Shown here one piece after another: positions 17,801 through 23,099 of a stretch of DNA of 64,000 bases. The position numbers and the translations under genes are program-made. Below the pieces are notes generated by a model, which had not been told where the DNA came from, did no database searches, and saw only the letters and a program-made list of their open reading frames with translations. The DNA is from Paenibacillus sp. FSL R5-0345 (GTDB taxonomy: Bacteria; Bacillota; Bacilli; Paenibacillales; Paenibacillaceae), in contig NZ_CP009281.1 of NCBI RefSeq assembly GCF_000758585.1, forward strand, positions 2,294,001 through 2,358,000, given 5' to 3'. Position 1 is the stretch's first letter, and every line of letters starts with the position of its first letter.

Positions 17801-17913
17801 TCTTTTGCATACATTTGAATAGTAAGAAATGAACTACTTCATATCTAAATATTGTCCTTCTGTATATCATTTAATGTGGCTGGGTAGGCATGAAATGGAT
17901 GGAGGGACATCAG

Positions 17914-18726
17914 GTGAAATATTGCATAGGGGAATTTGCTTCCATTCTCGGTGTAACTGCAGATACGCTGAGGTTATACGAGAAACATGATATTGTTAGG
18001 CCCACTAAAGATAACAGCAATAATTACAGATATTTTAATGACTTAGATGCAAGAGATTTGCTAATGAGTAGATGGTACAGAAGTATGGGAATTCCATTGC
18101 CGGAAGTGGCAACGCTGATGAAGGAGTCTTCATTAGAGCAAGTTATGGGTAGGATGCAGGAAACAGAGTCGAATTTAGAAGAAGAGATCAAGCGGAAGAC
18201 GATGCTGCTAAAAAAGATGAATGAAATTCATAATGAACTCAGAGAATTAGACTCCTCTTTATATAAGTGTAAACTTAAACAGCTGCCAGGTATGTATAGA
18301 CTAAAGCAAACGGATAAAAATGCATTATTAAAAAATGATATTGTAAAAAGCTTAGTCAACACTTGGATGGATCTGCTGCCGTATGCGTTTTATTCTTTTA
18401 GAATTGAGGATACAGGTATCTTTTTCAGTGAAAACAATAATTTTAATTATAGCTGGGGCCTTACTTTGCTAGAAGATGAAGCGCAACAATTCGAAATGGA
18501 TATTGAAGAGTACGCAGAGTATATTAGCCCAAGTCTTTGTATCTCAGCAACAATGTTATGTACGGATGAAAAATATATCACGAAGAACTCCTTGCAGTTC
18601 ATGTTTGACTATATCGAAGCTAATCATTATTCCATTTCGGGAGATGTGGTTGGAAAATTACTGCTCACCGAAAAAATTGAAGGCCATAATAGATCTTATT
18701 TGGAAGTGAATATCCCAATCAAATAG
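17914..18726 (+). CDS. MerR-family transcriptional regulator
   Basis: About 270 residues. The N-terminal winged helix (residues 1-70) has the MerR pattern (I-G-E-F-A, T-A-D-T-L-R-L-Y-E, N-Y-R-Y-F); a coiled-coil dimerisation helix (about 85-125) and a 140-residue effector domain follow. The GTG at 17914 is preferred because GGAGGG precedes it by 8 bases. A MerR-type promoter with a 19-base spacer and a dyad lies 66 bases past the stop, in front of the flavoprotein gene, which is therefore the likely target. The effector is unknown. Confidence 0.9.
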   Translation: MKYCIGEFASILGVTADTLRLYEKHDIVRPTKDNSNNYRYFNDLDARDLLMSRWYRSMGIPLPEVATLMKESSLEQVMGRMQETESNLEEEIKRKTMLLKKMNEIHNELRELDSSLYKCKLKQLPGMYRLKQTDKNALLKNDIVKSLVNTWMDLLPYAFYSFRIEDTGIFFSENNNFNYSWGLTLLEDEAQQFEMDIEEYAEYISPSLCISATMLCTDEKYITKNSLQFMFDYIEANHYSISGDVVGKLLLTEKIEGHNRSYLEVNIPIK

Positions 18727-18738
18727 TGACTCTAATTA

Positions 18739-18766
18739 AACATCTGCTCTTTGGGCAGATGTTTTT
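18739..18766 (+). terminator. Terminator of the MerR gene
   Basis: Perfect 9-base arms AACATCTGC and GCAGATGTT with a 7-base loop, then a T-rich tract. Confidence 0.85.
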
Positions 18767-18791: not shown

Positions 18792-18822
18792 TTGACCTTG
18801 GTGTTGCACCAATGTTTATACT
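18792..18822 (+). promoter_or_regulatory. MerR-type promoter with 19-bp spacer and central dyad
   Basis: TTGACC at 18792-18797 and TATACT at 18817-18822 are separated by exactly 19 bases, the overlong spacing that MerR regulators correct by twisting DNA. The spacer contains the dyad TTGGTG-TTG-CACCAA (18798-18812), extendable to 9-base arms with one mismatch. It points at the flavoprotein gene 110 bases downstream and lies right after a MerR-family gene. Confidence 0.85.
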
Positions 18823-18931
18823 TCGGGATATAGCCTGTCAGATGTCGTTGTTGATTAATCATTATCTTTGTGAAAATTATCACGTTATTTGTATCAGGTT
18901 ATAAGATATTAGACACTGGGGGAGAACAGAA

Positions 18932-20869
18932 ATGCGTAACAGAAATTTCGTCAAGAAAATGCTCATGTTATCTTTTTGTATGGTGCTGATCGTTTCCATG
19001 CTGAGTGGATGTACGGGAAATGGGGAATCGGCTAAGTCGTCATCGTCCTTTAAAGCCGGTACGTTCACAGGAGAAGCGGAAGGAAAAGAGGGAGTCATTA
19101 AAGTAGAAGTAACTATGGATGAGCCAGATAAAATTAAAGATATTAAGATCGTAAGCCAATCGGAAACAGGAGGGCTGGGAGATAGTGCACTTGAAAAAAT
19201 TAAAGCACAAATTCTAGAAGGGCAAACCTTGGCAGTTGATGCTGTTAGTGGTGCAAGTCTTTCCAGTGAGGCCATGCTTGCCGCTGTGGAAGATGCCGTA
19301 ACCAAAGGTGGAGGTAATCTTGAAGTTCTCAAAGCCGGAGGTGCAAAAAAAGCTGGTGAAGGGAAAACAGAAAAACTTGAAACCGATGTTGTTGTAGTGG
19401 GCGCTGGGGCATCCGGTGTATCTGCGGCGGTTACAGCGGCTGATAAAGGTGCTAAGGTTATTATTATAGAGAAAACGGGTGTCATCGGGGGAGCGAGTAA
19501 CTTATCCTGGGCAGGTAAGTTCTATAATTCATCCGCTGCTACGAATAATAATCTAAAAGTAAATGTGGAAAAAGAAATTGCGGATTGGATTGTCAACAAT
19601 CACTGGAGAGTGGATGCAGCAGCGATTAGACAATATGTTACTAAATCCGGTGAAACTTACGACTGGTTAGCCGAAAAAGGATATCAAACTAGCTTCTTGA
19701 ATTTCTTCGGTGAGCAATTACATGTGCTGCCAGCTTATGAAACACGTGAAGAAACGCTTCGTAAAATGTTATCCGAATCAGTTGAACAAAATGGCGGACA
19801 AGTGATCACAGAAACGACTGCCAAAAAGCTGATTACGAATGAAGCTGGAGAAGTTACAGGAGTAATCGCTGAGAAAGCGGACGGTACAACACTTGAAATC
19901 ACAGCGAAGAGTGTCGTTATGGCTACAGGTGGTTATGCTGCAAATAAAGAAATGGTAAAAGAGGCGTTTGGTTTCGAAGGGGTTAACGGTGGATTAGGAC
20001 AAAACGTAGGAGAAGGCCTTAAGATGGCATGGGAAGCTGGAGCCAAGGTGCCTGACAACTTCGGTGGACAAATGCTTCACCAAACATTGGCTAGAGCAAC
20101 ACAAGGTCTAAAAGCACAATATGAACCTTTTGAAGCAAGTTATCCACTAATGTTGACGTATCTTCCGAATTTCATGAATGTAGGTACTTCTGGCGCTCGA
20201 TTCAGAGATGAAGCGGCGACGTTAACTTCGGTTGCAGCAGCGAATACAAGTGCATTTAATGGTCCGTATCACATGGTTATCGTCTCGAAGTCACAACTGG
20301 AGGCACTTCAGACCAAGGGGATGAATGGTGTTCATGCACCAAGTCTTCCAGGAATGCCACCGGAATTCTATGCTGAATTTGCCGATAAATTCACACTAGA
20401 GAACCCTTGGACAAATGTCGAGAAAGTATTTGATTCGATGGTGGAGAACGGAGATGGCTTCAAAGGAAACACGATTGAGGAATTAGCTACGAATGCAGGG
20501 ATGGATGTTGATGTGTTTGCAGAAAATTACAATCGTTATACAGAAGCAACAAAAACTGGTGTAGATGCTGAATTTGGAAAAGCTGCTGAGTATTTAGAAC
20601 CTATGGGTGAAGAAGGTCCATACTACGCCATCATTGCTGAAATTAATAATCTGGGTTCAGTTGGTGGCTTGCTAGTAAATACAAAATTCCAAGTTCTGAA
20701 TGATAAACGGACACCAGTGAAAGGATTGTTTGCTGTAGGTCTAGAATCTGAAGGTGTGTTGTTTAATGATACTTATGTTGGAAACGGCGTTGGTATTGGG
20801 TACTCCTTTACCTCAGGTCGTCTTGGCGGGGAGAGTGCAGCTAACATTGCATTAGAGAAATCTAAGTAA
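18932..20869 (+). CDS. Lipoprotein FMN-binding / FAD-dependent reductase (fumarate- or urocanate-reductase-like)
   Basis: 645 residues. A signal peptide ends at lipobox L-S-G-C (Cys27). An FMN-binding domain (about 40-125) carries D-A-V-S-G-A-S, the motif to which ApbE-type transferases attach FMN; here Ser109 occupies the acceptor position where Thr is more usual. A flavocytochrome-c-type FAD domain follows, with V-V-G-A-G-A-S-G (155-162) and a C-terminal G-N-G-V-G-I-G-Y. It is probably an extracellular, lipid-anchored reductase of a small alpha,beta-unsaturated acid. It stands alone under a MerR-type promoter. Confidence 0.9.
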   Translation: MRNRNFVKKMLMLSFCMVLIVSMLSGCTGNGESAKSSSSFKAGTFTGEAEGKEGVIKVEVTMDEPDKIKDIKIVSQSETGGLGDSALEKIKAQILEGQTLAVDAVSGASLSSEAMLAAVEDAVTKGGGNLEVLKAGGAKKAGEGKTEKLETDVVVVGAGASGVSAAVTAADKGAKVIIIEKTGVIGGASNLSWAGKFYNSSAATNNNLKVNVEKEIADWIVNNHWRVDAAAIRQYVTKSGETYDWLAEKGYQTSFLNFFGEQLHVLPAYETREETLRKMLSESVEQNGGQVITETTAKKLITNEAGEVTGVIAEKADGTTLEITAKSVVMATGGYAANKEMVKEAFGFEGVNGGLGQNVGEGLKMAWEAGAKVPDNFGGQMLHQTLARATQGLKAQYEPFEASYPLMLTYLPNFMNVGTSGARFRDEAATLTSVAAANTSAFNGPYHMVIVSKSQLEALQTKGMNGVHAPSLPGMPPEFYAEFADKFTLENPWTNVEKVFDSMVENGDGFKGNTIEELATNAGMDVDVFAENYNRYTEATKTGVDAEFGKAAEYLEPMGEEGPYYAIIAEINNLGSVGGLLVNTKFQVLNDKRTPVKGLFAVGLESEGVLFNDTYVGNGVGIGYSFTSGRLGGESAANIALEKSK

Positions 20870-22115: not shown

Positions 22116-23045
22116 CTATGATCTCTTTTTTACAGGTTCCAGCAGATTTAATACATACTGACTTCCGCTGCCTTTGGGACTATCGTTACGGATATGCTCC
22201 TCAAGACATAATCTTGAATCGTGGTCAGCCTGATAATCCAAGTTATTATCCAAATAACTCATTAATGCTTGCCATGAGCCGTAGATATCATCGCTGCTTT
22301 CCGTCATTGCATAGAGACCGCCATCGAACCGCATCTCTTTAAGCTGGCTTGGTATTTCTACATTTTCAGGAATGGAGGCACAAAATCCATAGCCATAAGG
22401 ATTATTCTCACCACTTGGATGCGGATTTGTATTCCCACCAAATAGACGTGCTGTCCCCAAGAGATGGTTAGCCTCTAACCATTCCGTAACAGGAGCCATT
22501 GCTTCATCCTCTGGAGATGTGCTGACTGCAATATTATAGGCAAATCTCATAGGCGGAAGTGTAATGAATCTTACATGGATAGGTGGAGAGTGTTTAATCG
22601 TTGTCATAGATAGAACCTCCTCATTCTCATTCGTAACATCTAATGAATTGGATGACTCTTCGTTCAACGCTAATAACAAATGGTTAGTTATGGGTTCCTC
22701 CATACGTGCGGATATTAGTTGTAGGAAGAAGCGGATTTCACGATCTTTTTGTGTGAGATCAGATTTCTCCTTATGAATTGAAGCAGATTGCTGCAGGAGT
22801 ATTTCATATAAGGACTGAACGGACATGCTCTGTAGGACGGTACCGATATCCTTAATACTAATATCAAGTTTTCTTAAAAATGCGGTGATTCGAATAGCGA
22901 GTATTGCGTGCTCATCATAAATTCTCCAACCCGAGCTAGCCTCTCGGTGACTTTCAAACAATCCTTGCGCTTCCCAGTGACGCAACGTCCGACTCGTCAG
23001 TCCGATTTGCGTAGAAAGCTTATCAATAGTCACAAATCCACTCAT
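22116..23045 (-). CDS. MerR-family regulator with GyrI-like effector-binding domain
   Basis: 309 residues from the ATG at 23045 (GGGAG about 7 bases upstream); an earlier in-frame start at 23099 lacks a good site. MerR winged helix at residues 1-70 (T-S-R-T-L-R-H-W-E-A-Q-G-L), helical linker to about 125, then a GyrI/AraC-type effector-binding domain (about 155-305), as in BmrR-like multidrug sensors. No target gene is adjacent on the same strand; an operator-like palindrome lies at its own promoter. Confidence 0.86.
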   Translation of the reverse strand: MSGFVTIDKLSTQIGLTSRTLRHWEAQGLFESHREASSGWRIYDEHAILAIRITAFLRKLDISIKDIGTVLQSMSVQSLYEILLQQSASIHKEKSDLTQKDREIRFFLQLISARMEEPITNHLLLALNEESSNSLDVTNENEEVLSMTTIKHSPPIHVRFITLPPMRFAYNIAVSTSPEDEAMAPVTEWLEANHLLGTARLFGGNTNPHPSGENNPYGYGFCASIPENVEIPSQLKEMRFDGGLYAMTESSDDIYGSWQALMSYLDNNLDYQADHDSRLCLEEHIRNDSPKGSGSQYVLNLLEPVKKRS

Positions 23046-23099
23046 AGACAACTCCCGTTCTATAGATTGATTAGGCGCCCTATGGAAATATTTTAGCAC

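Follow-up and report, generated by a model that had tools for sequence, protein, structure and literature searches.

MerR-regulated promoters are known to carry a 19-20-bp spacer with a palindrome inside it (PMC7722741, PMC8113463, PMC1526738), and the regulators of this family activate such promoters through DNA distortion (PMC7722741, PMC8113463). For CueR, the signal ACCTTCCC-(5)-TGGAAGGT has been described in a promoter with a 19-bp spacer (PMC1526738). Among the enzymes, many surface reductases resembling fumarate reductase have been recognised, the substrates of which are unknown (PMC8238504). In the present study, we followed up a sequence-only reading of a 64-kb stretch of DNA (the window, that is, the whole stretch analysed), which had proposed that a promoter of the form TTGACC-N19-TATACT, with a dyad in its spacer, belongs to the gene of an extracellular flavin reductase lipoprotein and places it under the ligand control of a MerR protein encoded just upstream. 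The host is a soil-type bacterium. The features of the locus are as follows.

17901-17906, plus strand: ribosome binding site of merR, GGAGGG.
17914-18726, plus strand: merR gene, 270 aa, GTG start (Pfam MerR_1, AlphaFold2 model, PDB match).
18738-18764, plus strand: intrinsic terminator with a 12-pair stem and a T-rich tail (terminator scan).
18792-18797, plus strand: -35 element, TTGACC (sequence).
18795-18815, plus strand: predicted MerR operator, an imperfect 21-bp dyad, ACCTTGGTGT-T-GCACCAATGT (conservation, dyad covariation).
18817-18822, plus strand: -10 element, TATACT (sequence).
18868-18885, plus strand: Rex/Fnr-type box, TTGTGAAAATTATCACGT, in the predicted 5' leader (consensus match; regulator putative).
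18918-18924, plus strand: putative ribosome binding site of the reductase gene, GGGGGAG (sequence).
18932-20869, plus strand: reductase gene, 645 aa (Pfam, conservation of the flavinylation motif and C27).

The promoter is present as it had been described, and its 19-bp spacer, TTGGTGTTGCACCAATGTT, is read directly at 18798-18816. The inner dyad TTGGTG-TTG-CACCAA (18798-18812) is perfect, and the whole 21-bp operator dyad overlaps the -35 element, occupies most of the spacer and is paired at 8 of its 10 positions in the window copy. The merR gene does lie upstream, but the -35 element begins 65 bases past its stop (18726) and not 66 as had been given; the reductase start follows about 110 bp past the promoter. 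The hexamers with a loose spacing are not very rare, TTGACN-N18-20-TATANT having 3 matches within the window versus 0.52 expected. The exact 15-mer dyad has a single occurrence in the 6.79-Mb genome at zero mismatches, with looser matches at one mismatch, and the full promoter pattern is found once in that genome. A larger regulon was considered and rejected, as there is one operator per genome when close matches to the promoter pattern are counted.

The element was then compared over 85 loci, 68 from the family of the window (Paenibacillaceae) and 17 from Clostridia and other anaerobes. Its 31 bp hold a mean information of 1.54 bits per column versus 0.11 in the flanks, and their consensus is TTGACCTTGGTGCNGCACCAAGGTTTANACT. 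In every one of the 85 loci the spacer is 19 bp long with the dyad inside it, the operator dyad having the consensus ACCTTGGTGC-N-GCACCAAGGT. Among the 54 distinct sequences from these loci, TTGAC of the -35 element is invariant, as are the T, the A and the last T of the -10 element, whose family consensus is TANACT. Furthermore, the two arms of the dyad covary: 18 double-change cells were counted versus 7.8±2.2 in shuffled data and 1-6 with the partner slid, and symmetric double changes are found at 5 of the 10 dyad pairs. Since the element is conserved in 85 loci, it is not a product of chance. Judged by its conservation, it is a genuine MerR-family operator and promoter, to which binding of the regulator is predicted.

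We believe that the best explanation of the locus, with a probability of about 0.87, is that a dedicated MerR protein whose effector domain is BmrR-like activates the gene of a predicted flavinylated surface reductase by distorting its promoter. A MerR dimer would sit on the 21-bp dyad of the reductase promoter, in its over-long spacer of 19 bp, and keep the promoter inactive without a signal. On binding of a small molecule in the BmrR/GyrI-like C-terminal domain, MerR would distort the DNA, so that the -35 and -10 elements come into register for RNA polymerase and the reductase is expressed. The lipid-anchored enzyme would then reduce an organic compound outside the membrane, probably not fumarate or urocanate, and it is most likely this compound or its product that MerR senses. 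In Paenibacillaceae, a Rex- or Fnr-type input probably restricts expression to low-oxygen or reduced conditions. The explanation rests on sequence architecture, conservation, linkage and the predicted fold of the regulator; binding and activation, the ligand and the substrate, the redox input and the path of the electrons are inferred from these.

The linkage of the three parts is strict. The MerR, the reductase ortholog (counted at >=73% identity) and exactly one operator each (promoter by the 31-bp pattern) were found in an identical set of 45 of 100 same-genus genomes; in the remaining 55, neither MerR nor reductase nor operator is present as an intact copy. Among the 45, the merR of Paenibacillus sp. 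DMB5 (G063; L049/L165) is split by a frameshift with operator and reductase intact; among the 55, fragments of merR alone remain in two close relatives. In one of these two (G068; L052), the promoter is deleted together with the end of merR and most of the reductase gene. In other genera of the family, 23 further genomes were found, all with MerR, reductase and operator. Of 300 genomes sampled across the order, 40 have the reductase, and all of these also carry the MerR. Among about 85,000 species genomes scanned, the MerR was located in Alkaliphilus, Alkalibaculum, Sporosalibacterium, Anaerocolumna, Anoxynatronum, Fusibacter and related bins, and the 17 loci outside the family have MerR, a reductase homolog and the operator. 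Switch and reductase gene thus travel together across many Bacilli and Clostridia, so the predicted control is very likely real. The neighbours further out (a YeiH-type transporter, MarR and DUF2798) are common mainly to the closest relatives, and these genes do not belong to the module. In Paenibacillus sp. GM2 (L113/L161), the best reductase match covers the C-terminal half only and is offset from merR with the promoter intact; the reductase gene of this strain may be interrupted.

Beside the promoter lies a second conserved site. The window box departs from the S. aureus Rex consensus, TTGTGAAW4TTCACAA (PMC2883068), at 3 positions and from the Fnr/Crp type, TGTGA-N6-TCACA, at 1. Allowing <=3 mismatches to this Rex consensus, a box is found in 59 of the 68 family loci versus 0.06% of shuffles; with <=2 mismatches to TGTGA-N6-TCACA, it is found in 66 of the 68 (L035-L114), and shuffles give this pattern at <=1 mismatch in 0.2-0.4%. 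In 43 loci the box starts exactly 25 bp upstream of the -35 element, and in 23, including the window, it lies 12-55 bp downstream of the -10 element. The two positions are never filled together, except for a weak two-mismatch downstream match in L065. This distribution argues that the binding site changed sides of the promoter during evolution. Both Rex and Crp/Fnr-type proteins are encoded in the own genome. A box downstream of the -10 element suggests a repressor, and this would favour Rex. In addition, an aldehyde-dehydrogenase-domain gene resembling adhE, at another place in the genome, has a similar box ahead of it; adhE is a classical Rex target, and the pointer to Rex from this gene is suggestive only. 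Neither the box nor the terminator between merR and the reductase gene figured in the sequence-only reading. In the clostridial loci L125, L154, L156, L157, L159 and L160, which have no Rex/Fnr-type box, a GTTTGTTAWTTAACAAAC-like palindrome abuts the -35 element upstream; its spacing is at odds with what we take to be the clostridial Rex site.

The regulator itself was examined by profile search and by structure prediction. Its helix-turn-helix occupies residues 3-71 (Pfam MerR_1, E=2e-12; MerR, 2.2e-10), and in the AlphaFold2 model (pLDDT 89.3) a dimer helix at about 74-110 leads to a BmrR/GyrI-like effector domain at about 120-270. Over the full length, the best PDB match by Foldseek is BmrR (E=2.6e-14, TM 0.74), with BrlR and EcmrR next. 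Pfam sees the HTH alone, with no GyrI-like or Cass2 match in the C-terminal half; since the full-length model is closest to BmrR, this half is taken as a GyrI-like effector domain unseen by sequence. The ligand-type control that had been proposed gains support from this modelled fold. The profile alignment with BmrR (the BmrR query agrees with the PDB sequence in all but one letter) spans residues 3-87 only, short of the position equivalent to the acidic drug-binding Glu253 of BmrR. In the effector domain, Arg129, Gln132, Thr133, Trp181, Gly182 and Glu253 are invariant in orthologs and are candidate pocket residues. A second MerR-family gene, in which Pfam does recognise a Cass2/GyrI-like domain, lies at 22116-23099 on the minus strand, 1.2 kb beyond the reductase gene.

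With a multidrug sensor as the closest fold, MerR might sense a toxic unsaturated compound which the surface reductase inactivates, so that the enzyme would be detoxifying and not respiratory. The best-scoring NCBIfam model for the reductase, vinylphenol reductase VprA (NF053717), agrees with such a role, although its 225.7 bits are well below the cut-off of 600. Both the Rex/Fnr-type box in nearly all family loci and the occurrence of the system in strict anaerobes speak more for an electron-acceptor role, and we consider detoxification unlikely, if still a serious contender. It may also be asked whether the cue to which MerR responds in controlling the reductase is a redox or thiol signal, or some other internal state, and not a ligand related to the enzyme. 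Cys119 of MerR is invariant in 40 aligned orthologs, and the redox-type box stands beside the promoter. However, one Cys alone where the effector domain begins is not a sensor of the SoxR or NmlR type, and the C-terminal half has, in the model, a ligand-binding fold; we regard this reading as improbable.

The reductase has a signal peptide with the lipobox LSGC (C27), followed by FMN_bind (51-123) and FAD_binding_2 (152-619) domains in Pfam, and is a predicted surface lipoprotein, in line with the extracellular flavin reductase that had been proposed. A flavinylation motif, DAVSGASLS, lies at 103-111, and both this motif and C27 are conserved in orthologs. With the [S/T]GA[S/T] motif, both domains and the export signal present, and with one ApbE flavin transferase encoded in the genome, the reductase is probably flavinylated by this ApbE. 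The structure model of the enzyme is poor (pLDDT 58), and claims on the active site therefore rest on sequence motifs. As the reference active site we take the catalytic Arg R402 of Shewanella Fcc3 with the carboxylate-binding His504 and Arg544. At the corresponding positions the reductase has Tyr410 (located by counting without gaps from the GxRF motif in common), Leu574/Gly575 and Tyr615 (or Thr614), with no Arg or His at any of them. Tyr410 and Tyr615 are invariant in 26 reductase orthologs, in which the motifs NNLGSVGG and NDTYVGNG are invariant or nearly so.

These residues bear on the fumarate and urocanate that the sequence-only reading had suggested as inducers. An unsaturated acid of the fumarate, urocanate or cinnamate type could be both inducer and substrate, as fumarate and urocanate reductases belong to the fold family of this enzyme (PMC8238504). 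The genome encodes three more lipoprotein-like flavin reductases: L181 of the fumarate type, L182 of the urocanate type, and L183 without canonical active-site residues. L181 and L182 keep the canonical motifs (AVRGEG/DSRFDG, HYTMGG/HHTMGG and GQNRIGG/GANRLGG), whereas in the reductase the residues above replace the catalytic Arg and the carboxylate-binding pair. Against the flavocytochrome c model the reductase scores 151 bits versus a cut-off of 285, and the fumarate reductase cut-off is also far above its score. Because the canonical residues are absent and the scores are far below the family cut-offs, vinylphenol reductase included, fumarate and urocanate are unlikely substrates. The case for acid inducers is thus weakened, and the chances of an unsaturated acid as inducer and substrate are slimmer still than those of a redox or thiol signal. 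The motifs would instead suit a neutral unsaturated compound as the substrate.

Gene order shows to which gene the element belongs. In 3 of the 17 loci outside the family (L163, L170 and L171), merR and the reductase gene are in divergent orientation, with the operator in between and facing the reductase. In P. monticola, merR and the promoter are parted by an inserted gene, and the promoter has remained beside the reductase gene; the inserted gene is presumably related to family-8 glycosidases, as we read its sequence. Since the operator remains with the reductase in the divergent loci and after this insertion, the element belongs to the reductase, as had been claimed. The terminator at 18738-18764 separates merR from the reductase promoter, and the reductase should therefore be its own transcription unit. 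That the dyad is merely the merR terminator or a chance dyad is a negligible prospect and was rejected: the terminator scan does call TTGGTGTTGCACCAA and TGTTTATACT terminator-like, but a better and separate terminator stands upstream, the element between the gene starts of the divergent loci cannot terminate merR, and conservation extends beyond the dyad to the -35 and -10 hexamers and the distance between them.

Going beyond the dedicated MerR activator, we tentatively suggest, at somewhat less than even odds, a two-input switch by which Bacilli and Clostridia would use an uncharged organic compound as electron acceptor. Its inputs would be the redox box and a BmrR-like MerR dedicated to the substrate of the reductase, and the reductase would represent a class of surface flavin reductases not yet recognised, with Tyr for the catalytic Arg and no carboxylate clamp. 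A dedicated regulator that senses a ligand and has a one-site regulon would offer a direct route to the substrate, as the inducer of the promoter is probably the compound on which the reductase acts or its product. Genomes can be searched for the system with the conserved operator as a simple sequence tag, and the promoter could act as a reporter for the compound of the reductase.

In line with the sequence-only reading, which knew of no description of it, the pairing appears to be undescribed: in the open-access literature (subscription papers outside the scope), no published case of a MerR paired with a flavinylated or extracellular reductase was found. By text search, one survey of flavinylation makes no mention of MerR (PMC8238504) and another no mention of any transcription regulator (PMC11334425). 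The class of mechanism is a familiar one; what appears to be undescribed is the target class, the dedicated pairing and the redox box that goes with it. Listeria FrdA and Shewanella UrdA are likewise exported and have FMN_bind with the ApbE motif and FAD_binding_2 (PMC8238504), but the window reductase is without their catalytic Arg and carboxylate-binding residues. In Lactiplantibacillus plantarum, VprA/VprR and HcrAB/HcrR also set a dedicated local regulator beside a plant-phenolic reductase; those regulators, however, are of the LysR type (PMC10295242), and the window reductase is far below the VprA cut-off. CueR/copA and other metal-responsive MerR promoters share the geometry, and the outer half-sites ACCTT...AAGGT match the CueR signal (PMC1526738). 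The window MerR differs in being longer and in its BmrR-like domain, and a metal-sensing MerR was rejected on scores far below the CueR, ZntR and MerR cut-offs. The multidrug sensor BmrR of Bacillus subtilis is the best structural match, and its bmr promoter has a 19-bp spacer with a palindrome (PMC7722741); the window MerR is about 15% identical to BmrR and would govern a surface reductase, whereas BmrR governs an efflux pump.
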